A stretch of 64,000 nucleotides of DNA, taken from positions 393,806 through 457,805 of the forward strand of contig JAEPNP010000001.1 of NCBI GenBank assembly GCA_017643395.1. Direction: 5' to 3'. Numbering within the stretch: position 1 is the stretch's first letter; every line of letters begins with the position of its first letter. Both the position numbers and the translations under genes were made by a program. The DNA is from Rhodothermales bacterium. Lineage in GTDB: Bacteria > Bacteroidota > Rhodothermia > Rhodothermales > UBA10348. The notes beneath the pieces are model-generated. The model was given only the letters and a program-made list of their open reading frames with translations. It was not told where the DNA came from and searched no databases. Shown in pieces: positions 25,344-38,519 of this stretch.

Positions 25344-25541
25344 GCAGGCGCCAACCGCGAAACAAGGCGCAAAGGTACCTCCCCTGTGGCAGGGCAGCAA
25401 TCGAAAGTGCCGACCTCCCTGGAAGCATCTGTCCACCCGACTACCGGTCAATCGTCGAACGGCACCGTTCGGTCGGGATCATCGGAACGTGCAGGCCCGC
25501 TGAGGAATTCCCCGCGCCTTGCTGCTCACCCTCCCGTGTCC

Positions 25542-28091
25542 ATGGTTCGATTCCTCCCCGTTCTTGCGCTGCTACTGGCGGCCTGCTCCTCGCCCGAGCC
25601 GAAACCACGCCCCTCCGGTGCGTGGTCATCGCTGGATTGGATGACCCAGGCCAGGGCCTATCCCCAGCCGGATGTGCCGGCCGCCGGGGTATCCGAGGCC
25701 TTTGACCTGAAAAGGCGCGCGTTCAAGACGCAGGACTTCGAGCAGGAACCCTGGGAGGCCATCGGCCCCCACAATGTGGCCGGCCGCATGCTGTCGGTGG
25801 TGTTCAACCCGCAGCGGCCGCGCACGCTGCTGGCGGGCTCGGCCAGCGGAGGGCTTTGGCGCTCTTACTCCGGCGGCGAGGGAACGAGCGCCTGGCACCG
25901 GATCGAGACCGGATTCCCGGTCCTCGCCGCCTCGGCAGTCGCCTACGCGCCGGACGACTCCAGCACGATCTACCTCGGCACCGGGGAGGTGTACAACTAT
26001 CAGGATCGCGATGGACGGGGCGTCACCTATCGACCCTCTCGCGGCTCCTACGGCATGGGCATTCTGGTCTCCCGGGATGGCGGCACGAGCTGGAGCAAGA
26101 CGCTGGACTGGGCGGCCGAGCAGGGCCGCGGCGTGCAGATGATCACGGTGAACCCGCTTCGGCCGGCCTCGGTCTGGGCGGCGACCACCGAGGGTCTCTA
26201 TGTCAGCTACAACGCCGGACGCAGCTGGACGAACGTGCACCCGGTGATTATGGCCACGGACGTATCCCTGCATCCGGCCGACACGAGCCTGGTCCTGGCG
26301 GCGCACGGCAACCTGGGCACGCCGGGCAACGGCCTCTACCGATCCCTGGACGGCGGTGCCACCTGGAGTCGGACCACCGAAGGACTTCCCGCGACGTGGC
26401 GCGGCAAGGCCCTGATCACGCAGGCTCCCTCCGACCCGAACGTTGCCTACGCGACAATCGGGAACGGATTCACCTCCTCGGACGGGAATTGGCTGGTTCG
26501 CACGCTGGACGGCGGGGCGACCTGGGAGGTGATGCAGGAGACCACCAACTTCGTGGGGTCCCAGGGGTGGTATTCGCACGACGTTTCGATCAGTCCCGAC
26601 AACATCGACCACATCACGGTCGTGGGCTTCCTGATCTACACATCTACCGACGGCGGACGCGTCTTGAATCCGCAGACCGAATGGACGGGCTGGACGAACC
26701 CGACGCCCCCCATCGGTGGGCATGATGGGGTACCGCAGTGGACGCACCCGGATCACCATGCAATAGCAGTGCATCCCGAGGATGCCGACTACCATCTCTT
26801 TGCGACCGACGGAGGCATCTATCGCACGACCACCGGCGGTGCACCGTTCGAGGCCCTCAACGGGGGCCTGCAGACGGTGCAGTTCTATGCGGGTATGAGT
26901 AACAATCCCCAGGTGCCGCAGGTCGCCATGGCGGGCACCCAGGACAACTCCACGCTCCTCTACCGCGGCACCCTGCAGTGGCGCATCCTGAACGGAGGGG
27001 ACGGCGCCTGGACGGCCATCGACCCGGAGCAGCCCAATCGGGTTTACTGGTCCAGTCAGTACCTGGCGATGCGTCGCTCCACGGACAGCGGGCTCAGCTC
27101 CCAGGGCGTCGCACCGCCGGGCAACAACAGGCCCACGGGCTTCGTGGCACCGTTCGTATTGAGTCCCGTGAATCCCGCGCGGCTGTATGCCGGACGGGAC
27201 CGGGTATACATGTCCAGCAATCGCGGCGCCTCATGGGGCACCGGAAACGGTGGAAACCCGCTGACGGGTGAGCCGCTGGTCAGTCTCGCTGCCTCCTCCC
27301 AATCGGCCGATGTGGTCTATGCGGTAACGGCACCCGGCATTGAACGCGCGCGGGTGCTGGTTTCGCGCAGTGGAGCGGTTCGCTGGCAGGACATCACCGG
27401 GACATTACCAGATCGCTACCTGGTAGATATCGCGCTGGATCCTCAGGACGATAACCGGGCCTTCGTTGCTGTGGCCGGCTTTGGTACGCCCCATGTCTAT
27501 CGAACCGAAGACGGTGGTGCATCCTGGTCGGCTGCGATTTCGGGACTGCCCGACGTACCCACCTGGTCCGTTGTGGTCGATCCGCAGACACCCAACCGGG
27601 TGTACGCTGGAAACGATGTGGGTGTGTATGTCTCTTCGGACGGCGGCGATACCTGGGAGCCGTTCGACGAAGGACTTCCGGAGGCCCTCATCGCAATGGA
27701 TCTGGCCATCTCCGAAGCTGCCACCGCTGACGACGCTACCCGGCGGCTGAGGGTAGCCACGCACGGAAACGGCATGTTTCAGCGCGCGCTGGAAGGAACC
27801 GGATCGGAACCCGAACTACCCATTTTCAACCAGTTCGAGCTGCTGACCGTCTTTCCCAACCCGGCCCGTGAAGCCATCACGGTCACCTATGTGCTCGACA
27901 GCAGGCAGGATGTGCTGCTTACGCTGCATGACGCTTCCGGCCGACGTGCCAAAACGGTGATCGATGGGCCTGTCAACTCCGGCCGGGCGTTTGATCGCAT
28001 TCCGACTGCAGATCTCCCGGCGGGCATCTACTACGTGACCATTCGGTCCCAGGACGTGAACACCACCACCCCGGTGAGCATCGTGCGATAG
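25542..28091 (+). CDS. Sortilin/BNR-propeller lipoprotein with T9SS sorting domain
   Basis: 849 residues from the ATG at 25542, the start of a lipoprotein-type signal (VRFLPVLALLLAAC). The body holds at least seven Asp-box/BNR repeats such as SRDGGTSW, SLDGGATW, TLDGGATW, SSNRGASW, TEDGGASW and SSDGGDTW, the VPS10/sortilin-like ten-bladed-propeller family found in secreted glycosidases and surface proteins. The last 75 residues (VFPNPAREAITVTYVL ... DLPAGIYYVTIRSQD) are a type A T9SS C-terminal domain. The function is not assignable beyond secretion. The combination of a lipobox and a T9SS tail is unusual, and the lipobox could be spurious. Confidence 0.88.
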   Translation: MVRFLPVLALLLAACSSPEPKPRPSGAWSSLDWMTQARAYPQPDVPAAGVSEAFDLKRRAFKTQDFEQEPWEAIGPHNVAGRMLSVVFNPQRPRTLLAGSASGGLWRSYSGGEGTSAWHRIETGFPVLAASAVAYAPDDSSTIYLGTGEVYNYQDRDGRGVTYRPSRGSYGMGILVSRDGGTSWSKTLDWAAEQGRGVQMITVNPLRPASVWAATTEGLYVSYNAGRSWTNVHPVIMATDVSLHPADTSLVLAAHGNLGTPGNGLYRSLDGGATWSRTTEGLPATWRGKALITQAPSDPNVAYATIGNGFTSSDGNWLVRTLDGGATWEVMQETTNFVGSQGWYSHDVSISPDNIDHITVVGFLIYTSTDGGRVLNPQTEWTGWTNPTPPIGGHDGVPQWTHPDHHAIAVHPEDADYHLFATDGGIYRTTTGGAPFEALNGGLQTVQFYAGMSNNPQVPQVAMAGTQDNSTLLYRGTLQWRILNGGDGAWTAIDPEQPNRVYWSSQYLAMRRSTDSGLSSQGVAPPGNNRPTGFVAPFVLSPVNPARLYAGRDRVYMSSNRGASWGTGNGGNPLTGEPLVSLAASSQSADVVYAVTAPGIERARVLVSRSGAVRWQDITGTLPDRYLVDIALDPQDDNRAFVAVAGFGTPHVYRTEDGGASWSAAISGLPDVPTWSVVVDPQTPNRVYAGNDVGVYVSSDGGDTWEPFDEGLPEALIAMDLAISEAATADDATRRLRVATHGNGMFQRALEGTGSEPELPIFNQFELLTVFPNPAREAITVTYVLDSRQDVLLTLHDASGRRAKTVIDGPVNSGRAFDRIPTADLPAGIYYVTIRSQDVNTTTPVSIVR

Positions 28092-28167
28092 GTTCGGGGG
28101 TGGCCCGAACGGCTTGCCCGCGTCCGGGTGGGGTGGTTTCTTGGCCCAGAGCCAGCCCCCAAGAGCC

Positions 28168-28734
28168 ATGCAATCCCCCGAAGACCCGGACCGCCGCGCT
28201 TTCATCCGCCGCTTTGCTGGTCTTTCCGGTGGGGCCGCCCTGACGGCCTACATGCCGGCTTTTCTGGCTACCATGGACCTCGCTTGCAGCCCGGGAGCCG
28301 AGCAGCAGCCTTACCGCCTGTTCACAGCCGAGGAAGCCGCATTCGTGGAAGCCTTCACCGCGCGCATCATTCCAACCGATGACCGGCCCGGTGCCAGGGA
28401 GGCGGGTGTCACCCGGTTCATCGACATGGTGCTGGACACCATGCCCGTATTCACGGGAGCCGATGCGCTGATCCGCGGGACCATGGACCAGCTGGCCGGG
28501 CAGGCGGGCCAGCCCTTCGCCTCTCTTTCGGAGGACGAGCAGGACACCCTGATCCATGGGATCGAAACGGAGCTGCCGTTCCAGATCCTCCAATTCCTGA
28601 CTGTGGCCGGCTTTCTCAGCCATCCCGCTCGTGGAGGCAACCGGGGCAAGGTGGGCTGGCAACTCATCGGATTTGATGACCGTCACGCGTGGACGCCCCC
28701 CTTTGGCCACTACGACGCGGAGGTAAACGCATGA
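28168..28734 (+). CDS. Gluconate 2-dehydrogenase subunit 3-like protein (Tat)
   Basis: 188 residues. It starts with a Tat signal (DRRAFIRRFAGLSGGAALTA), followed by a region rich in FTAEEAAFVEAFTARIIPTDD and GVTRFIDMVLDT, the hallmark of the small subunit (subunit 3) of membrane FAD dehydrogenases. It helps export and maturation of the large FAD subunit, which follows with an ATGA overlap (28731). I use the ATG at 28168 because the twin-arginine motif is 9 residues after it. Confidence 0.9.
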   Translation: MQSPEDPDRRAFIRRFAGLSGGAALTAYMPAFLATMDLACSPGAEQQPYRLFTAEEAAFVEAFTARIIPTDDRPGAREAGVTRFIDMVLDTMPVFTGADALIRGTMDQLAGQAGQPFASLSEDEQDTLIHGIETELPFQILQFLTVAGFLSHPARGGNRGKVGWQLIGFDDRHAWTPPFGHYDAEVNA

Positions 28735-30380
28735 AACGTGTGGAGACCAGCACCCGCTATGCCACCCGTGAGGAGGTAGACTTTGTGATCGTCGGCTCCG
28801 GCAGCGCCGGCGGCATCATGGCCCGCGAATTGGCTGCCGCCGGCCACAGCGTGGTCCTTCTTGAGAAGGGCCCCTGGGTAGACCCGTCCGAGTTTCGGCA
28901 CGATGAGTGGAAAACGTTTTTTGAGTACGAGTGGATGGGCAACGGCGATGGCAGCCACGGGCAGACATTCCGCGCCTCCGAGGATCAGGTCGCGGCCCCT
29001 ACCCCGTTTCCGCCTGCGCTCTACGCAAAAATGGTCGGTGGCAGCAGTGTGCACTTCACAGCCAACTTCTGGCGCTTCCGCCCCGTCGACTTCAATGAGC
29101 GCAGCCGCCTCGGTCCGATTGCCGGAACGAATTTCGCCGACTGGCCGCTGACGTACGACGAGCTCGAGCCGTACTACACGCGGGTCGACTGGGAAATCGG
29201 AGTCTCCGGTACGCCGGCCCCGGACGACCCTCCGCGGTCCCGCCCCTATCCGATGCCGCCGCTTGCGGTGAAGTCCTCGGGCGTGCTGATGGACCGCGCA
29301 GCGGCCAAGCTCGGTCTGCACTCGCATCCCGCCCCCATGGCCATCCTGTCGGAGGTCTACGACGGTCGTGCGCCGTGCATCAATTGCGGCTTCTGCCTGG
29401 CATACGGCTGCGAGGTCAACGCCAAATCCTCCACACTGGCGACGATGATCCCCCAGGCGGTCTCATCCGGCAACTGTGAGGTCCGCCCGCTGAGCACCGT
29501 CTTTCAGGTTGCCCTCGGCGCGGACGGCCGTGCGCGGGAGGTCCGGTACCTGGACAAAGACGGACTGGAGCATGCCCAGGCCGCCAAGGCCGTCATACTG
29601 AGTGCGAATGGGGCCGAAACCGCTCGTTTGCTGCTCCTGTCGGAAATCGGGAATGGCAGCGGAATGGTGGGTCAGAACCTGATGTTCAACGGACAAACAG
29701 CGGCCAACGGACTGTTTGAGCACGCGCTGAACGAGTTCAAGGGCCCCCAGGTCACCCGGATCGTGCACGACTGGTACGATACCGACCCCGGCCGCGGCTT
29801 CTACGGCGGCGGTGGGCTGGACGCCCGTTTTCAGCCTGGAACCCCCATCTGGTGGGCCGTCGGAGGTGGGTTGCCGCCCTCTGTGCCTACATGGGGGGCC
29901 GGGTTCAAGGACGCGCTGGAGCGGTACTACACGCGTAGCATGACGGTGGCCGTGCACACCACCTCCCTGCCCGTCGCGAGCAACAACGTGACGCTGGACC
30001 CGACCCATACGGATCAACATGGGCTGCCGTCGCTTCGCATCACCTATCGCGACCATGATGATGACCTCGCCACCATGGCGTTTCTGCAGGACCGGGCTCG
30101 CGAGGTCCTGGACGCCGCCGGAGCCCAGGAAGTCTGGGCGCCGGAGGTTGTGCCTCAAAGTGCCGGAGCCCACCTGCTCGGCACCACCCGAATGGGCACG
30201 AATCCCGACACTTCGGTTGTGGATCGCTACCACCGCAGCCACGAGATCCCCAACTTGTTTATGGTCGATGGGGGCAGTTTCGTGTCTTCCGGAAGGGGGC
30301 AGCCCACCATGACCATCATGGCCCTGGCATTCCGCGCCGCAGAGCACATCTCCGAATTCGCCCGACGCGGCGAGATCTAA
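28731..30380 (+). CDS. GMC-type FAD dehydrogenase, large subunit
   Basis: 549 residues. The GMC oxidoreductase fold: FAD motif VIVGSGSAGGIMARELAAAG near residues 17-36, VLLEKG, the GMC signature MVGGSSVHFTANFWRFRP, and the C-terminal catalytic region HLLGTTRMGTNPDTSVVD, FMVDGGSFVSSGRGQPTMTI. A cysteine cluster C216-x2-C219-x2-C222-x4-C227 is in the hinge region, as in bacterial glucose dehydrogenases that carry an Fe-S cluster there. No cytochrome c subunit is adjacent. The electron acceptor is therefore unclear. The sugar or alcohol substrate is unknown. Confidence 0.9.
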   Translation: MKRVETSTRYATREEVDFVIVGSGSAGGIMARELAAAGHSVVLLEKGPWVDPSEFRHDEWKTFFEYEWMGNGDGSHGQTFRASEDQVAAPTPFPPALYAKMVGGSSVHFTANFWRFRPVDFNERSRLGPIAGTNFADWPLTYDELEPYYTRVDWEIGVSGTPAPDDPPRSRPYPMPPLAVKSSGVLMDRAAAKLGLHSHPAPMAILSEVYDGRAPCINCGFCLAYGCEVNAKSSTLATMIPQAVSSGNCEVRPLSTVFQVALGADGRAREVRYLDKDGLEHAQAAKAVILSANGAETARLLLLSEIGNGSGMVGQNLMFNGQTAANGLFEHALNEFKGPQVTRIVHDWYDTDPGRGFYGGGGLDARFQPGTPIWWAVGGGLPPSVPTWGAGFKDALERYYTRSMTVAVHTTSLPVASNNVTLDPTHTDQHGLPSLRITYRDHDDDLATMAFLQDRAREVLDAAGAQEVWAPEVVPQSAGAHLLGTTRMGTNPDTSVVDRYHRSHEIPNLFMVDGGSFVSSGRGQPTMTIMALAFRAAEHISEFARRGEI

Positions 30381-30383
30381 TTC

Positions 30384-31013
30384 ATGCGTACCGTTTCTCT
30401 CTTACTTGTTGTGGCTCTGGCAGGGTGCAGCGCCTCGGACCCCATCACCCAGCCGTCTCTGGTTTCCCTGCATCAGGCGGCCCCGGATTCCTTCGAGGTC
30501 CGCATGGAGACCAGCGAAGGAGCCCTGAACCTGCGTCTCTATCGGAACTGGTCTCCGGAAGGGGTGGATCGGGCCTACTACCTGTTCCGAAACAACTTCT
30601 ATGAGGGTGCCCGCTTCTACCGGGTGGTGGAAGACTTCGTGGCTCAGTTCGGCGGATCGGGTGACCCCGTCATTGACGAGCAGTGGCGCCAGATGCCGTT
30701 GAACGATGAGCCCGTTCGAGCCAGCAATGAGCGGGGCACCCTGTCGTTCGCCCGCGCCGGAGCGCGTACGCGGTCCTTCACCATGTTCATCAACCTGAAG
30801 GACAACATTCACCTGGACGCGGATCGCTCCTCACGCAACGTCGTGGGCTTTCCTCCCATCGGTCGTGTGGTCGAGGGCATGGACATCGTGGAGCGCTTGT
30901 TCAGCGCTTACGGGAACGAACCGATGCGTACCGACCTCGGAGCGCGCACACTGGCCGCTGAATACCCTGAACTCGATTCGATTGCGGTCACGACGGTAGT
31001 TCGTGCCTGGTAG
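30384..31013 (+). CDS. Cyclophilin-type peptidyl-prolyl isomerase lipoprotein
   Basis: 209 residues. Lipoprotein signal with Cys15 (SLLLVVALAGC). The cyclophilin domain spans about residues 38-205: METSEGALNLRLY, RNNFYEGARFYRVVEDFVAQ, GTLSFARAGARTRSFTMFIN and GFPPIGRVVEGMDIVERLFS. It differs from the 21879 gene and shows less conserved active-site residues (FYRVVEDF for FHRVIPxF, so the Arg is kept). It lies 3 bp after the GMC gene and is likely cotranscribed. It may help fold the exported dehydrogenase (inference). Confidence 0.85.
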   Translation: MRTVSLLLVVALAGCSASDPITQPSLVSLHQAAPDSFEVRMETSEGALNLRLYRNWSPEGVDRAYYLFRNNFYEGARFYRVVEDFVAQFGGSGDPVIDEQWRQMPLNDEPVRASNERGTLSFARAGARTRSFTMFINLKDNIHLDADRSSRNVVGFPPIGRVVEGMDIVERLFSAYGNEPMRTDLGARTLAAEYPELDSIAVTTVVRAW

Positions 31014-31076: not shown

Positions 31077-34000
31077 ATGCGTCACTTTCCCCGTCCGGCT
31101 GTGCTTGCGGTGCTCACCACCGTGGCCCTCAGTGCACCGGCTCGTGCCCAGGACCACAACCATGAGACGCACGCCCAGTCTGATGCATTCTGGGCGGCAA
31201 AGGCCCGTAACCACACAGGCCGCTATGTCATCGCTGCGGGACCGCTCGTAGCCCAGAGCCCCGCCGATCTGAGTGAGCTCGGCGAGTGGAGCAGCGTGAT
31301 CGAGTGGCCGCACGTCCCGGTGTCGGCTGCGAATCTGCCGGACGGTCGCATTCTGACGTGGTCGTCCAACCGGACGGACGGATTCCCGTCGGGCTCGGAG
31401 TTCACCTATGCCTCTGTCTGGGACCCGCAGACCGGCAGCTTTGTGGACACACCGAACCACACGCACGACATGTTCTGCGCCCACCTGGTCATGCTGCCGG
31501 ATGGCAAGCTCCTGGTGAACGGCGGGCGCAACCACGTCAAGACCACCTCCGTCTTCGATCCGGATACGGGAAGCTGGTCGCAGACATTCTCCATGAATCA
31601 CGGGCGCTGGTACCCGACCACGGTCGCGATGCCGGATGGCACGGTGTTTACGGCTTCGGGGAGCGGCCAACCTAACGCGGCCGACACGGCTGAGCTCCTG
31701 ACGCCCGGGTCCGGATGGGCGGAACTGACAGGAATCGACTGGGGTGGAATCTCCGGCCAGTTGGGCTTCGAATCCCACTGGTGGCCGCACCTTTTCCTGG
31801 ACCCCAGAGGCGACATCGTGCATGCGGGGCCGACCTCGATCATGCACCGCGTCACGGTGCAGGGCAACGGACAGCTTCTGGAGTACGGCCCGTGGCTGCC
31901 CGATGCATGGTATTCCAAGCATGCGGCCGTGGCCATGTACGACGAGGGCAAGATTCTCATTGCCGGCGGCGCGGGTACGGCTGTCGCCGACCCCGCCACC
32001 AATCGGGCGTTGATCATGGATGTCAACGGGGCAACGCCCGTGGTCACCGAGATCGCGCCCATGCAGCACCCGCGCAGGTTCGCCAGCGCCGTCGTGCTGC
32101 CAAACGGCGAAGTGCTGGTGGTTGGCGGAAATACCACCGGCATCAAGTTCAGCGATGACGGCACGGTACTCCCGGTGGAAATCTGGAGTCCGGACGCCGG
32201 CACCTGGCGCACCGTCGCGGGGATCTCCGAGCCTCGCAACTACCACTCCATTGCCCTGCTCCTGGACGATGGCCGCGTGCTATCTGCGGGCGGTGGCCTC
32301 TGTGGCTCCGGATGTGCCGCCAATCACCAGGACGGACAGGTCTACACACCGCCGTATCTCTACGACGCCGCCGGGGCCCTGAAACCCCGCCCGGAGATCC
32401 TGAATGCTCCTTCAGCGGTCGGCTACAGCCAGACCTTCCAGATTCAGGCTACCCGGGACATCGACTATTTCACGATGATCAAGGCATCGTCCACCACGCA
32501 TGCGGTCAATACGGATCAGCGCCTGGTTCGCCTTGCGGTTCGGTCGCGCTCGGGAGACAACTACGAGGTCATCTCTCACCCGAACAAGAACGTGCTGTCC
32601 CCCGGATACTGGATGCTGTTTGCCGTCGATACCGACGGCACACCATCGACATCCATGCCCGTCCTTGTCACGGAAGATCTGTCGGCCTCACTGCTCTCGA
32701 TCGCCGACCAGGAATCGCGGAATCTGGACACCGTCAACCTGCAGGTTCAGTGGTTCGTGCCGGAGGGCATGACGGCATCGTTTTCAGCCACGGGGCTTCC
32801 CCCCGGGCTCTCCATACACGCCGAGACCGGCCTGATCTCCGGAACGATCGCGGCCGGCTCGACCGGCCTGCACGCGGTGGAGATCACGCTTACCGCAGGT
32901 CAACTCCAGGACACGGAATCATTCAACTGGACCGTGCGGGACGGCGGCACTGGTTCGATTCTCCGGGAGTGGTGGAGCAACATCCAGGGCGATGAGCTCG
33001 CCGGTCTTCGCAGCGACCCCCGCTATCCCGACAGTCCATCGGGAACCGACTACCCGGACCAGTTTGAGGCCCCGACCGACATCGCCAACTTCTACGGCAC
33101 GCGGATGCGGGGCTTCCTGCACCCGCTTGAGGACGGGCTGTACACGTTCTGGATTGCCAGCGACAACCACGGCGAGCTGTGGCTCAGCACCAGTGCATCT
33201 CCGGACGACGCGCAGGTCATCGCTACGGTCGGCCATTGGACTCCTTCGAGGGATTGGGAGAAATACGCCTCGCAGGAGTCGGCGCAGGTCTACCTCGAAG
33301 CCGGGAATCTTTACTACATCGAGGCTGTGCACAAGGAAGGAGCGGGCGGAGACAATCTGGCCGTGGCCTGGCAGACCCCGAGCCGCCTCCGAGAAGTCAT
33401 ACCGGGCACTTTTCTCTCGCCCTTCAATGGGTCTCCCGCCCTGGCAAACCCCGGAGACCAGCAGGACCCCGTCGGAACTGCGGTTAACCTGCAGCTGCAG
33501 GCCGCGGACCCTGAAAACGAGCCCCTGACGTTCTCCGCCTCCGGCCTGCCGGACGGCTTGTTGCTGGACACTCAGACAGGGATGATTTCCGGCATACTCG
33601 CCACGCCAGGCACGTTCACGGTGTCGGCGGCGGTGACTGACGGAACCGGACTGGAGTCGGTCACCTTCGTGTGGACGGTGGACTCAAACACCGCGCCGCT
33701 CGCCATTGCCGGGGTGCAGTCTTCACCCATTGCTGTCGGCCAGGCCGGCAGCGTTTCGCTGAGTGTCTCCGGGCCCGCTTCCTTCGATGTGGCATGGGAC
33801 TTTGGCGATGGGACAAGCACAACGGGCGGGGCGCAGGCATCCCACACCTGGAGCGCTCCCGGACGCTATCAGATTTCCGCCGTGGTCACGGCCGGCCCGG
33901 AATCGGCGCAGGTCTCGTTCTTCCAGAACGTGCACCCGGCCGAAACGGGCCAGGCGGGCAGCCGCAGCTCCAGCATTGTCCTTGACGCCTCCGGTCGGAT

Positions 34001-37000
34001 CTGGAACGTCAATCCGGACAACAACTCCGTAACCGTGACCAGTGCGAACGGGCAGGTTCGCCTCGCGGAACTTCCTGTCGGGGATAATCCGGTGGCGCTG
34101 TCTCATGCAGCGAACCGGGTGTTTGTGGTAAGTCGGGGTTCCGGCACCGTCACAAGCGTTTCCACCTCATCACTGGGTGTGGTGGAGACATTTGACATGC
34201 CGTTTGCAAGCAGACCCTATGGCATTGTGGTTCGCCCGGATGGATCGGAGGCCTTCGTAGCCCTCGAGGGCTCCGGGCGCGTGGTCCGACTGGACCTCTC
34301 TTCCGGTCTTGCCGAACAGTCATCGTCTCTGGGCCCCTGGCTGCGCCACCTCGCGTTGTCCGGCGACGGAAGCCGACTCTACGTCACAAGATTCATCACC
34401 CCGCCCATCGCAGGAGAAAGCACGGCCAACGTAGGGACCGAGGGGGGCGGGGAGGTACTGTGGATTCGTACATCCGATCTCGGCCTGGACCGCACGACCA
34501 CGCTGGCCTACAACGACGTGGTGGACACGCCCGATCGCGCTCGCGGCATCGCCAACTACCTCGCGGCTCCAGCCGTTTCCCCGGACGGTGCGTCGCTGTG
34601 GATCCCGTCCAAGTTCGACAACATTTTCCGCGGCCTGCAGCGTGACGGCGAGGCACGCGAGCACGACCGGCTCGTGCGTGGCGGCATCTCTGTGATCGAC
34701 ATCCCATCCGGAAACGAACGGGTGGCCGACCGACTCGACGTCGACGACCAGAGCCACCCTGTCGCGTCCGTGTTCGGGCCGCGCGGCAACGTGCTCTTTG
34801 TGGCTCATTCGGGCTCGCGTGCGGTGACGGCCATTGACCCGTTCCTGGGCCAGGCCATTACGCGCATCGCAGTCGGACGGGCCCCGACAGGTCTTGCGCT
34901 CTCTGCCGACGGCCGCACGCTGTTCGTGCACAACTACATGGACCGCACCGTGCAGTCCGTGAATGTGACCGCGCTCACCGAAGGCGGAAGCGGAGTGGAA
35001 GCGCCGGTCGGTCAGGCCATTTCGACGGTGGGTATCGAAGCCCTGGATGCCGTGGTGCTTCGTGGCAAGCAGCTCTTCAACGACGCTTTCGATGACCGCC
35101 TCTCGGCCCAGGACTACCTGTCCTGCGCCTCCTGCCATGCCGGCGGCGCGCATGACGGCCGCGTCTGGGACATGACAGACGGTGGAGAGGGACTGCGCAA
35201 TACCATCGATCTGCGCGGCCGCGGCGGCACCGACCATGGTCCGGTGCACTGGACGGCCAACTTTGACGAGATCCACGACTTTGAGAACGATATCCGGGGC
35301 GTCTTCGACGGAACGGGCCTGTTGAATAATGCCGACTTCCAGGCAACGCAGGACCCGCTTGGCCCCCTGAAGGCCGGGCGCTCCCCGGATCTGGACGCGC
35401 TGGCCGCGTACGTTGCAAGCCTGCGAGAATCAGGCAGCAGCCCCTTCCGCATGGCCGACGGTTCGCTTTCGGCCGCGGCGGCGGCGGGACTTGAGATATT
35501 TCGTCAACTGGACTGTGCCGCCTGTCACTCCGGTACGCGATTCACGGACAGCCCATCGCTCACACTGCATGATATAGGCACGTTGCGTGCATCCAGCGGA
35601 AGCCGTCTCGGGCAGCCATTGACCGGCATCGATACGCCGACGCTGCGGGGTGTCTGGGCCACGGGGCCGTACCTGCATGACGGCTCTGCCGCCACCCTGG
35701 GCGATGCCGTGCAGGCCCATTCCGGCGTGTCCGTCTCGGCAGGGGATTTGGCGAACCTGGTCGCCTATCTCCAGGCCATCGACGACGAGGAGGCCGCGGC
35801 TCCTTCATCAGGCGGCCCGCCCGTCGTGGACGCCATCGCCGAACAGTCGCACCTGCTCGAGGAGGCGGTCAGCCTGGTTGTTACCGCAAGCGAGCCCGAC
35901 GGGGACCCGGTGACGTTCAGTGCCTCCGGACTGCCACCCGGATTGTCCATGTCCCCCGACGGCCACATTACCGGCGCTGGAACACAGGCCGGAGCCTACA
36001 CCGTCACCGTGCGGGCGGAGGACATCGACGGTTCCGATGCGCGACAATTCACGTGGAGAATCCTGCAGGTTGACGTGCCTGTGGAGTCCACCTGCTATCT
36101 GGTGGCGGACAATAGCGGCGCCGCCGATGTGCTGACCATGGTTGTCGATGGCCAGGAATCCCGGGTTGGGGGCACGGGCACGACCAGGATCGAAGGCATT
36201 GCATACAGCCCCACCCTCGGCTCACTCTACGCGGCGGACGCGGACCGGCTGGGACGCCTGGACACGGCGACCGGAGCGTTCCTGGATGTCGGTGCCTTTG
36301 GCTCCGCTGACGGAGCGGACGGAACGCGCGGGGTCTCGGATGTGGACGGCATGGCCTTCCAGCCGGGAACGGGCCTTCTGTTCGGTAGCGTTGCCAAATC
36401 GGGAGAGCCCGACCTGTTGGTTGTCATCGACCCGGTTACCGGGTCCGTGGTCCCGAACCACTTCGGAGCAGGCACGGGATACGTCACCATCGCACCGGTA
36501 GACGGTGTCGAAACCCTGGACGACATCGCCTTTCACCCGACAACCGGAGTGCTGTACGGCGTCGGTACTACCTCCGGGGGTACACGGCTCTTTACCCTCA
36601 ATCCCGTGACCGGGATGACGGCTCTCGTCGGGGTGGTTGATCGCGAGATAGAAGGTCTCGGATTCACCACGGACGGTCGCCTCTTCGGCACGACCGGAGA
36701 CAACGGGCGCACGATCGTCGAGATCGACCAGATTACGGCCTCGACGACGGCCGTGGCGACGTTGGGAGAGGGTGGGACAGACTACGAGTCCATCGACTGC
36801 CGCGGACCGCAGGCCGAACAACGCATATCCGGCACTGTCTACTTCGACGAGAATGGGGACGGCGTGCTCGGAGCAGGAGAGAACGGCCAGGCCAACGCGC
36901 GGCTGGATCTGTTCCGTGACCTCAATTCGGACGACACCCTGGATGCGGGCGATGCCCTCCTGCGCTCTGTCACAACCGCCCAGGACGGTACATGGTCGTT

Positions 37001-38519
37001 CCAACTGGCAAGTCTGGGGGCGTTTCTGGTGCGCCTCGACTACGCAAGCCTGCCCCCGGCGGCGACCCCATCGAGTGAGGCCGTGGCTGCCGTGTCTGTG
37101 CAGTCCGAAGGCCAGCAGGTTTCGGGGGTGGATTTCGGCTACGAACTGGACCAGACCACTGCCTCCCTGTTCTGCTACGCGGTGGCCGACCAGGGAAGCG
37201 GGCTCGGCGACGGGGACGTGCTGACCCGCATCAGCAAAGGCTCCCTGCTCGAGACCACCGTAGGGGTCATGGGCTCGCAGTTGGTGGAGGCCATGGCATT
37301 CAACCCGCAGCAGACGACGCTCTACGGCGCGAATGGTCGCCGGTTTGGTTCCATCGATGTCGTCACCGGGGCATTCACTGAGATCGGCCGGTTTGGAAGT
37401 GGGTCCGGTCTGGCCGGAAACGTGACCTTCAGTGATGTGGACGGACTCACGTTTGACCCGAACACGGGCATCCTGTATGCGGCCGTTCGACGATCGGGCG
37501 CGACGGACTTGCTGATTCAGGTGGATCCGAATACCGGTGCGGCAGTGGCCGGGGCGTTCTCCAGCGGCGACTATGTGGAGATCGAGGCCATCGACGGCCG
37601 CGGCGACATCGACGATCTCGCCATCGACCCTCTGGACGGGCAGCTCTACGCCATTGCGAATGGATCCGGGTCGGGACAGGTGGTCCGGATTGACCGGGAA
37701 ACCGGTGCCTCTACGCTGGTAGCCAGCGTCAACGACGGCTCCCTGGAAGGACTTACGTTCGATGGGGACGGCACGCTGCTTGCCACGCGTGGCAGCAGTT
37801 TCCAGGAAGTGGTCGTGGTCAACCGCAGCACAGGCGCGACCTCCCTGTGGGCCTCACTCGGGGTCGACGGCCATCGTGACTACGAAGCCATCGCCTGCCT
37901 GACCAACGATACCAATACGACCGCCGGACGCGCTTACGCCGACATGAACATGTCCGGGGCCTTCGACGCGTACGATGCCGTGCTCCCCAATCTGGAGGTC
38001 TCTCTCTACAGAGACATGAACGCGGACGGACGACTGGATTCGGGCGATGCGCTCCTGGGCGTCACCGAGACGGACTTCTCCGGGAAATACACTTTCCGCA
38101 CTGCGTCCCAAGGTGACTTTCTCGTGACCACCTCGCGGCCCGGAGCTACCGTCCGCGGAGTGAAGCATCACGGATTCGGTCAGACGGCAGGAGCGGAAGA
38201 CTTTGTGCTGGAGATCGGATCGGCGACCTCGCAGGAGACCCCGGCTCAACTGCCGAAGGTGTTTGAACTCTTGCCGGCCTATCCGAACCCGTTCAATCCG
38301 ATCACAACCATAGGCTTCGACTTGCCGCAGTCTGCCACCGTGCGACTGGAGGTGTTCGACATGACAGGTCGGCGCGTTGCGTTGCTTGCCTCAGGCGCGC
38401 ATCCCGCCGGACGACATCAGGCGAGATTCGACGGTTCGCGATTTGCAAGCGGGATGTACTTCTACCGGCTGACGGCCGGTGCGCAGGTTCAGACCCGCTC
38501 GGTGATCCTGATGAAGTAG
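31077..38519 (+). CDS. Giant T9SS-secreted protein: copper radical oxidase + PA14/Ig/PKD + propellers + diheme cytochrome
   Basis: 2480 residues, with a signal peptide ending near ARA-QD. Domains in order: galactose-oxidase-like Kelch propeller (about 65-430) and its C-terminal DUF1929 domain (435-540); Ig-like (540-620); PA14 (624-770); Ig-like (787-870); PKD (873-955); YVTN-type propeller (960-1310); a cytochrome domain with CASCH (Cys1350, Cys1353, His1354) and CAACH (Cys1480, Cys1483, His1484) and the conserved GPYLHDGSAATL; Ig-like (1580-1660); a duplicated unit of propeller plus SdrD B-like domain (1665-2025 and 2030-2390); T9SS type A sorting domain (last 80, LLPAYPNPFNPITTIGFDL). Galactose-oxidase catalytic residues are matched: Cys134 (DMFCAHL), Tyr179 (RWYPTT), Tyr389-His390 (PRNYHSI) and His475 (TTHAVNTDQR). 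One uninterrupted frame. Confidence 0.93.
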   Translation: MRHFPRPAVLAVLTTVALSAPARAQDHNHETHAQSDAFWAAKARNHTGRYVIAAGPLVAQSPADLSELGEWSSVIEWPHVPVSAANLPDGRILTWSSNRTDGFPSGSEFTYASVWDPQTGSFVDTPNHTHDMFCAHLVMLPDGKLLVNGGRNHVKTTSVFDPDTGSWSQTFSMNHGRWYPTTVAMPDGTVFTASGSGQPNAADTAELLTPGSGWAELTGIDWGGISGQLGFESHWWPHLFLDPRGDIVHAGPTSIMHRVTVQGNGQLLEYGPWLPDAWYSKHAAVAMYDEGKILIAGGAGTAVADPATNRALIMDVNGATPVVTEIAPMQHPRRFASAVVLPNGEVLVVGGNTTGIKFSDDGTVLPVEIWSPDAGTWRTVAGISEPRNYHSIALLLDDGRVLSAGGGLCGSGCAANHQDGQVYTPPYLYDAAGALKPRPEILNAPSAVGYSQTFQIQATRDIDYFTMIKASSTTHAVNTDQRLVRLAVRSRSGDNYEVISHPNKNVLSPGYWMLFAVDTDGTPSTSMPVLVTEDLSASLLSIADQESRNLDTVNLQVQWFVPEGMTASFSATGLPPGLSIHAETGLISGTIAAGSTGLHAVEITLTAGQLQDTESFNWTVRDGGTGSILREWWSNIQGDELAGLRSDPRYPDSPSGTDYPDQFEAPTDIANFYGTRMRGFLHPLEDGLYTFWIASDNHGELWLSTSASPDDAQVIATVGHWTPSRDWEKYASQESAQVYLEAGNLYYIEAVHKEGAGGDNLAVAWQTPSRLREVIPGTFLSPFNGSPALANPGDQQDPVGTAVNLQLQAADPENEPLTFSASGLPDGLLLDTQTGMISGILATPGTFTVSAAVTDGTGLESVTFVWTVDSNTAPLAIAGVQSSPIAVGQAGSVSLSVSGPASFDVAWDFGDGTSTTGGAQASHTWSAPGRYQISAVVTAGPESAQVSFFQNVHPAETGQAGSRSSSIVLDASGRIWNVNPDNNSVTVTSANGQVRLAELPVGDNPVALSHAANRVFVVSRGSGTVTSVSTSSLGVVETFDMPFASRPYGIVVRPDGSEAFVALEGSGRVVRLDLSSGLAEQSSSLGPWLRHLALSGDGSRLYVTRFITPPIAGESTANVGTEGGGEVLWIRTSDLGLDRTTTLAYNDVVDTPDRARGIANYLAAPAVSPDGASLWIPSKFDNIFRGLQRDGEAREHDRLVRGGISVIDIPSGNERVADRLDVDDQSHPVASVFGPRGNVLFVAHSGSRAVTAIDPFLGQAITRIAVGRAPTGLALSADGRTLFVHNYMDRTVQSVNVTALTEGGSGVEAPVGQAISTVGIEALDAVVLRGKQLFNDAFDDRLSAQDYLSCASCHAGGAHDGRVWDMTDGGEGLRNTIDLRGRGGTDHGPVHWTANFDEIHDFENDIRGVFDGTGLLNNADFQATQDPLGPLKAGRSPDLDALAAYVASLRESGSSPFRMADGSLSAAAAAGLEIFRQLDCAACHSGTRFTDSPSLTLHDIGTLRASSGSRLGQPLTGIDTPTLRGVWATGPYLHDGSAATLGDAVQAHSGVSVSAGDLANLVAYLQAIDDEEAAAPSSGGPPVVDAIAEQSHLLEEAVSLVVTASEPDGDPVTFSASGLPPGLSMSPDGHITGAGTQAGAYTVTVRAEDIDGSDARQFTWRILQVDVPVESTCYLVADNSGAADVLTMVVDGQESRVGGTGTTRIEGIAYSPTLGSLYAADADRLGRLDTATGAFLDVGAFGSADGADGTRGVSDVDGMAFQPGTGLLFGSVAKSGEPDLLVVIDPVTGSVVPNHFGAGTGYVTIAPVDGVETLDDIAFHPTTGVLYGVGTTSGGTRLFTLNPVTGMTALVGVVDREIEGLGFTTDGRLFGTTGDNGRTIVEIDQITASTTAVATLGEGGTDYESIDCRGPQAEQRISGTVYFDENGDGVLGAGENGQANARLDLFRDLNSDDTLDAGDALLRSVTTAQDGTWSFQLASLGAFLVRLDYASLPPAATPSSEAVAAVSVQSEGQQVSGVDFGYELDQTTASLFCYAVADQGSGLGDGDVLTRISKGSLLETTVGVMGSQLVEAMAFNPQQTTLYGANGRRFGSIDVVTGAFTEIGRFGSGSGLAGNVTFSDVDGLTFDPNTGILYAAVRRSGATDLLIQVDPNTGAAVAGAFSSGDYVEIEAIDGRGDIDDLAIDPLDGQLYAIANGSGSGQVVRIDRETGASTLVASVNDGSLEGLTFDGDGTLLATRGSSFQEVVVVNRSTGATSLWASLGVDGHRDYEAIACLTNDTNTTAGRAYADMNMSGAFDAYDAVLPNLEVSLYRDMNADGRLDSGDALLGVTETDFSGKYTFRTASQGDFLVTTSRPGATVRGVKHHGFGQTAGAEDFVLEIGSATSQETPAQLPKVFELLPAYPNPFNPITTIGFDLPQSATVRLEVFDMTGRRVALLASGAHPAGRHQARFDGSRFASGMYFYRLTAGAQVQTRSVILMK

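Follow-up and report, generated by a model that had tools for sequence, protein, structure and literature searches.

A bacterial AA5 copper radical oxidase fused to a hydrazine synthase-like propeller and diheme module

We found that a single gene of a Rhodothermales bacterium encodes, in one 2480-aa frame, both an AA5 copper radical oxidase and a diheme cytochrome. The gene lies in the 64,000-nucleotide stretch of genomic DNA analysed here, which we call the window. The AA5 domain sits ahead of a module resembling the joined beta and gamma subunits of hydrazine synthase (HZS), a family already reported as widespread. While the parts, as well as partnerships between AA5 enzymes and peroxidases, are already known, the fusion of AA5 with an HZS-like diheme appears, from the literature searched, to be the new element. 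We tentatively favour a link through H2O2, in which the diheme would act, among other things, on the AA5 domain itself; we regard this reading as falling somewhat short of probable.

Layout of the fusion protein

The frame runs from an ATG at 31077 to a stop codon ending at 38519 on the forward strand, exactly the coordinates, length and frame given in the initial annotation of this DNA, and the five AA5 cofactor residues and two CxxCH motifs named there were all verified at their positions in the translation. The annotation's outline of an AA5 oxidase, a diheme and a type IX secretion (T9SS) tail also stood, but it had missed the Ig, PA14, PKD and YVTN propeller domains in between. The gene, its parts and its upstream neighbours are as follows.

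28114..28734, + strand: gluconate 2-dehydrogenase subunit 3-like gene, upstream neighbour
28689..30380, + strand: GMC oxidoreductase, upstream neighbour
30384..31013, + strand: cyclophilin-type isomerase, directly upstream of the fusion
31077..38519, + strand: whole gene, 2480-aa AA5-diheme protein with T9SS tail (ORF translation and motifs)
31077..31151, + strand: putative Sec-type signal peptide, residues ~1-25 (by eye)
31272..32681, + strand: AA5 copper radical oxidase domain, residues 66-535, kelch repeats and GO-like early set (Pfam and PDB sequence matches; fold from the model of homologue L067)
31476..31478, + strand: Cys134, cross-linking cysteine of the AA5 cofactor (motif alignment)
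31611..31613, + strand: Tyr179, would-be cross-linked tyrosine and copper ligand (motif alignment)
32241..32246, + strand: Tyr389-His390, copper ligands (motif alignment)
32499..32501, + strand: His475, copper ligand (motif alignment)
32682..32936, + strand: He_PIG Ig-like spacer, residues ~536-620 (Pfam; borders by eye)
32952..33398, + strand: PA14 domain, residues 626-774 (Pfam)
33687..33917, + strand: PKD domain, residues 871-947 (Pfam)
33927..35036, + strand: YVTN beta-propeller, HZS-beta-like, residues 951-1320 (model and fold search)
35037..35811, + strand: diheme cytochrome domain, residues 1321-1578, HZS-gamma/MauG/CCP superfamily (Pfam, PDB sequence matches, model)
35124..35138, + strand: first heme site CASCH, residues 1350-1354 (motif)
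35514..35528, + strand: second heme site CAACH, residues 1480-1484 (motif)
35817..36062, + strand: He_PIG Ig-like domain, residues 1581-1662 (Pfam)
36078..38246, + strand: two DUF4394-like and two SdrD_B-like stretches, residues ~1668-2390 (Pfam; outer borders approximate)
38280..38507, + strand: T9SS type A sorting domain, residues 2402-2477 (Pfam, NCBIfam)

Another He_PIG stretch, bringing those in the protein to three, was matched by Pfam between the PA14 and PKD domains. The fusion is the sole frame of the window with two CxxCH motifs. Its C-terminal tail scored above the curated cut-offs of both T9SS models (TIGR04183, 41.9 bits versus 23; PF18962, 37.2 versus 27), in agreement with the annotation of a T9SS protein. 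The genome holds 130 PF18962 tail matches at E <= 0.001 and two places above cut-off for the cytochrome c assembly family PF01578, so that export and heme attachment would be possible, and the fusion protein may be exported by the T9SS and loaded with metal and heme. Compared with the sister species, dN/dS was 0.247/1.771 for the AA5 domain and 0.175/2.418 for the diheme domain; dS above 1 is saturated, and the values thus inform on direction only, which for both domains is that of purifying selection.

The AA5 copper radical oxidase domain

The roles of the Cys-Tyr pair, the tyrosines and the histidines of AA5 enzymes are well established. Residues 68-529 matched solved galactose oxidases (phmmer E 1.6e-86), with the FC, R-x-Y, YHS and TH motifs in register in the phmmer alignment, and a query with the AA5 domain only matched them over the full domain length (E 7.7e-88). 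Pfam GO-like_E_set was found at 73.1 bits (cut-off 25), and matches to Glyoxal_oxid_N (Pfam) and to the NCBIfam GlxA model lay below their cut-offs. When the model of a compact homologue, L067, was searched by fold, the best 27 PDB rows were all AA5 enzymes. The AA5 assignment made in the annotation is thus borne out by the whole-domain match, by the cofactor residues in register and by the fold of the homologue. Like galactose oxidase and other AA5 enzymes (PDB 9g43/9g8h, 1gof; GlxA 4unm), to which it is similar along the whole domain, the window protein has the Cys-Tyr pair, both tyrosines and both histidines. Unlike galactose oxidase, it has Gly197 in place of Trp290 (GGSWSGG) and a tryptophan, Trp178, before Tyr179 (RWY); unlike any of the solved AA5 enzymes compared, its AA5 domain is built into a heme protein of 2480 aa.

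The propeller-diheme module

Residues 951-1580, comprising the YVTN propeller and the diheme domain, were modelled together from 56 sequences (pLDDT 90.9, pTM 0.92), and in this model they are one rigid HZS-beta-gamma-like unit. The best PDB match of the model by Foldseek was HZS beta (E 2.5e-20). VIA-align likewise ranked 5c2v_B, HZS beta, at the top (Z 38.4, 302 aligned residues, rmsd 1.7), followed by an archaeal YVTN propeller (Z 36.8). Among the matches listed, the fold searches cover the propeller part (model residues 15-366); the diheme half was, therefore, barely probed by fold, and its identity rests on sequence. Searched alone, the diheme domain found HZS gamma, 5c2v_C, as its best match (E 3.6e-18), ahead of MauG and of the cytochrome c peroxidases (best 5.3e-10, others weaker), and Pfam assigned it to CCP_MauG (29.7 bits versus 25.6) and RoxA-like_Cyt-c (28.1 versus 26.7). 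By these matches the domain belongs to the bCCP/MauG superfamily, with its two CxxCH motifs in linked cytochrome lobes. The CcpA/MauG class proposed in the annotation, thus, holds at the level of the superfamily, but the closest relative by sequence is HZS gamma, and the domain is rigidly joined to a propeller: the module is an HZS-beta-gamma-like protein, not a plain CcpA.

We rejected hydrazine synthase itself, as the NCBIfam HZS beta-gamma model scored 81.4 versus a cut-off of 1250, and the only cysteines at 1300-1600 are those of the two CxxCH motifs, leaving no third heme cysteine. In HZS gamma, by contrast, excerpts of PMC12758564 describe a third heme-bound Cys at heme gamma-I. The same excerpts report that distantly related fused HZS-beta-gamma homologues are highly prevalent in environmental bacteria; hydrazine synthase beta-gamma and these homologues have, like the window protein, a YVTN propeller ahead of a MauG-like domain with two CxxCH motifs. 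Some homologues carry extra N-terminal heme domains, whereas the window protein has an N-terminal AA5 domain, of which these excerpts make no mention in the homologues. Homology of the HZS gamma subunit to bacterial CCP and MauG is likewise stated in an excerpt of PMC12607021.

Distribution of the fusion

To scan the genome_contigs collection we used residues 67-1666 of the window protein, a query containing AA5, and obtained 63 loci. AA5 and diheme share one frame in 21 of them, and in three more (L015, L036, L068) AA5 and the propeller are followed by the contig edge. Three further fusions (L105, L106, L108) from two genomes already represented, L144 and the window bring the total to 26. The records of the scan name Rhodothermales, Thiotrichaceae, Granulosicoccaceae, Woeseiaceae, Lysobacterales, other Gammaproteobacteria, Flavobacteriaceae and Chloroflexi. 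Most members of the fusion family are from metagenome-assembled genomes (MAGs). L144 (4119-10426; protein UST56369.1), one of the two records of the plasmids collection matched by the diheme query at E <= 1e-20, comes from an isolate in culture, a member of the Comamonadaceae obtained from an Arabidopsis leaf, and lies on a complete 424-kb plasmid of that isolate. With 26 proteins in several phyla, one of them on an isolate plasmid, we can rule out that the fusion is an assembly fault or is peculiar to one genome; the search for proteins with AA5 plus diheme domains, which the annotation had suggested as a check, thus shows that the window protein is no one-off.

AA5 is nevertheless rare in the phylum, being found in 4 of 394 genomes drawn, and of two other genomes of the window's genus one had an AA5 match while in the other, 98% complete, it was absent. 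Some propeller-diheme match was found in 304 of the 394 genomes; among the matches listed it was full-length in at least three (G000, G346, G140) and only partial in the others. The family is laid out as an N-terminal propeller, PKD, YVTN propeller and diheme, with PKD detected in part of the family. The N-terminal domain varies: in 59 module proteins it was AA5 in 25, what we take, from reading the sequences and with no Pfam basis, to be an LVIVD propeller in 25 and an FG-GAP propeller in 6, and unclassed in 3, the share of AA5 being, if anything, over-represented because the query that yielded the sample contained AA5. The module stands behind non-AA5 propellers in 31 of the 59, so the diheme can have no general need for peroxide made by AA5.

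Cofactor residues across relatives

Equivalents of the copper ligands Tyr389-His390-His475 were present in 43/43 AA5 rows, and that of Tyr179 in 42/42 rows covering the position. The cross-linking cysteine varied. Among 28 fused rows, two of them cut at that point, it was kept in 20 of the 26 covered, including the window, and was alanine in 6; all 14 covered rows called unfused had Cys, five of these having their C-terminus off the contig end. The six alanine rows (L009, L010, L014, L015, L023, L036) are from MAGs of Leucothrix, Cocleimonas or Thiotrichaceae and have the four copper ligands intact. Four have the diheme in the same frame, and the contig ends before it in L015 and L036. Two pairs of Ala-type AA5 domains gave dN/dS of 0.065/1.038 and 0.120/1.511, with saturated dS.

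In the diheme domain, E1371, R1374, N1375, H1391, W1392, E1398, D1401, E1403, R1407 and K1432 were invariant in 56/56 sequences, those from E1371 through R1407 lying after the first heme site. In the sequence alignment His1548, which might be the sixth ligand of heme 2, was present in 18/22 fused rows and 11/34 other rows; in known bCCP/MauG members the sixth ligand of the C-terminal heme is Met or Tyr.

Origins of the pairing

Trees were built for both halves; they are quick trees with no bootstraps, and rejection of one clade alone cannot separate gains from losses. On the AA5 tree of 43 rows the fused proteins require 6 changes, at least 5 of which are forced by starred branches, and one clade of fused AA5 was rejected with all 43 rows (p-AU 5.4e-119) as well as without the long or partial rows L063, L038, L092 and L113 (p-AU 3.2e-59). 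Addition of L144 resulted in 7 changes, 6 of them forced. As five rows called unfused in the 43-row tree (L006, L007, L092 and both of L118) lose their C-termini at a contig edge, we also built a stricter tree of 34 rows, 24 fused and 10 unfused with a stop codon, from which five cut fused rows were dropped too. It gave 6 changes, 4 of them forced, and one fused clade was rejected (p-AU 2.4e-122; 3.9e-5 without the long rows L063, L110, L113 and L114). There, L012 pairs with L119, which is complete and unfused, as its sister (98), L067/L032 group with the unfused L109/L111 (97) and L063 with the unfused L116 (97).

On the module tree, which has 3 changes for AA5, the Flavobacteriaceae fusion L012 falls inside the LVIVD group (support 100), and the window and its sister L008 join L063 and the FG-GAP proteins (support 100). 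A grouping of the AA5 rows in one clade apart from the LVIVD rows was rejected (p-AU 1.75e-5). L144 has an AA5 domain of the L012 type and a module of the main AA5 group, indicating that AA5 domains have also been exchanged. A single clade of fusions is, thus, rejected on both trees. The AA5-diheme pairing seems to have been assembled more than once, and such repeated assembly suggests that the two halves work together.

A proposed mechanism

AA5 enzymes require one-electron oxidation to reach their Cu(II)-radical form. We propose that the fusion would be a secreted bifunctional oxidoreductase with both activities in one polypeptide. Its AA5 domain would oxidise a primary alcohol, perhaps of a glycan or other polymer to which the PA14 and Ig spacers hold on, yielding an aldehyde together with H2O2. 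The propeller-diheme, as a tethered peroxidase partner, would take up the H2O2. The oxidising power of H2O2 might then bring a resting or immature AA5 copper site to the active tyrosyl-radical state and/or pass to an outside donor, also clearing surface peroxide. We infer the H2O2 production, the peroxidase activity, the coupling with its direction and the substrate alike. By analogy, the fused diheme may be a bacterial one-polypeptide version of the separate peroxidases that partner AA5 enzymes.

In excerpts of PMC9770985, the fungal peroxidase CorPerox is reported to activate CorAlcOx, with EPR support. This tandem pair likewise ties AA5 to an activating heme peroxidase, but as two separate proteins with a class II peroxidase and no diheme c-type cytochrome. 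A bacterial AA5 enzyme dependent on a heme peroxidase and a copper chaperone is GlxA of Streptomyces lividans: according to excerpts of PMC4736821, mature GlxA was not seen in liquid culture with no copper supplement when DtpA was lacking; its maturation also required Sco, and added copper restored it. In the authors' proposal, DtpA, a DyP peroxidase, acts by oxidising Cu(I) bound to Sco, which they favour over a direct action on the radical site, and it probably removes H2O2 as well. GlxA and DtpA, unlike the halves of the window protein, are separate, unfused proteins, and the peroxidase is of another family. A likeness to the GlxA system is the SCO-family gene of L144, which lies directly downstream of the fusion together with a gene for a small CxxCH protein.

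Coupling is favoured by the recurrent fusion with conserved sites and low dN/dS, by the complete AA5 cofactor residues in the window, by the single propeller-diheme unit of the model, by the PF01578 places of the genome, by the two downstream genes of L144 and by the known AA5-peroxidase partnerships (excerpts of PMC9770985 and PMC4736821). It is weakened by the function that the module must have without AA5 and by the six AA5 rows without the cross-linking Cys. Bulky spacers also part the sites, with ~790 residues of separate domains between AA5 and diheme, and no fixed arrangement was seen in the compact homologue, the model of which (pTM 0.68) is uninformative on domain packing. Moreover, HZS gamma, the closest relative, has no peroxidase role in its own pathway. 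A SCO gene was found beside one fusion only among the loci searched: phmmer detected none beside others in the window, L008-L070 or L105-L119, many of which have short flanks. The preference for Sco-bound Cu(I) oxidation expressed in the excerpts of PMC4736821 points the same way. The suggestion of the initial annotation that one polypeptide produces and uses H2O2 is, thus, plausible, given the repeated fusion and the known partnerships, but it would not be general for the module. A stronger version would be a self-activating radical oxidase, in which the diheme forms or restores the tyrosyl radical of AA5 with H2O2 that AA5 itself has made; in the Ala clade of Thiotrichaceae type it would also drive an AA5 site whose tyrosine is unmodified and which could not be active alone. 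We consider this version improbable.

Alternative explanations

A doubtful, though serious, alternative is that the H2O2 made by AA5 is only detoxified by the diheme, or used by it on an external donor, with no action on AA5 itself. Membership of the CCP/MauG superfamily fits this explanation, and H2O2 removal is one role proposed for DtpA in the excerpts of PMC4736821; yet the module is common without AA5, and peroxide at the surface would diffuse away, so that removal alone should gain little from tethering. Another explanation, which we hold to be unlikely, is that the diheme does the real chemistry and AA5 is mainly a binding or copper-holding propeller serving it, as the LVIVD and FG-GAP propellers may. 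The swapping of N-terminal propellers, with 3 changes for AA5 on the module tree, is consistent with such a role, as is Ala for Cys in six AA5 rows, with low dN/dS in the two pairs tested. However, copper ligands invariant in every AA5 row, and a cysteine kept in most of the covered fused rows, the window included, speak against it.

The annotation had also considered that oxidase electrons might be sent to the hemes, which in place of O2 would make the protein an alcohol dehydrogenase feeding an outside cytochrome. The small CxxCH protein encoded directly downstream in L144 and the GMC/gluconate 2-dehydrogenase subunit 3 pair upstream in the window could be read in this way, but the relay found no support in the long stretch of separate domains between the sites or in the compact model with no fixed arrangement, and AA5 enzymes use O2; we judge it very unlikely. 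HZS-like nitrogen chemistry, that is NO reduction, has on its side that the module finds its best structural and sequence relatives in HZS beta and gamma. It is extremely improbable in view of the NCBIfam score, far under its cut-off, and of the third heme-bound Cys of HZS gamma (excerpts of PMC12758564), which is without counterpart in the window.

The fusion bears on how copper radical oxidases mature and stay active outside the cell, a process in which separate heme peroxidases take part in fungi and Streptomyces. It would be a natural single-molecule system with cofactors that can be mutated one by one, would offer a possible function for part of the large HZS-beta-gamma-like family, and, through its Ala clade, bears on whether AA5 can do without the thioether once it has a peroxidase attached. 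In keeping with the annotation, which knew of no described enzyme with this architecture, we found no description of an AA5-diheme fusion in the literature searched, mainly titles and the starts of abstracts of the papers listed. Another bacterial AA5 fusion, with an inactive CE3 domain in Burkholderia pseudomallei, was reportedly described in Mazurkewich 2023, cited in PMC11267884; by its title, the partner there is an esterase-type domain and not a heme domain.

Gene neighbourhoods

The cyclophilin gene adjoins the fusion upstream in the sister species as well (76% identity), whose 7.7 kb of available upstream sequence gave no match to the GMC gene. A pair of YtkA-like and MauG/MbnH-like diheme genes lies beside four gammaproteobacterial AA5 fusions (L020, L022, L046, L062), and one FG-GAP locus (L025) has a MauG-like gene without the YtkA-like one; neither was found in the remaining loci (window, L008-L070, L105-L119), many with short flanks. 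We rejected a common gene neighbourhood, since the pair occurs in four fusion loci only and is hence not general, and left it out of the mechanism.

Further upstream in the window (25386-28091) a Sortilin/BNR-repeat protein is encoded, the T9SS tail match of which scored 26.9 versus the Pfam cut-off of 27; it is kept in the sister species (65% identity). In that species, genes for a DHOR di-heme protein and a Rieske protein (L008:5228-6999) are divergent from the cyclophilin-fusion pair. The LVIVD relatives of Vibrio, Photobacterium and Saccharospirillum (L050-L052, L055, L056, L061) have recurring neighbours, which by eye resemble genes of sugar or polyol catabolism.
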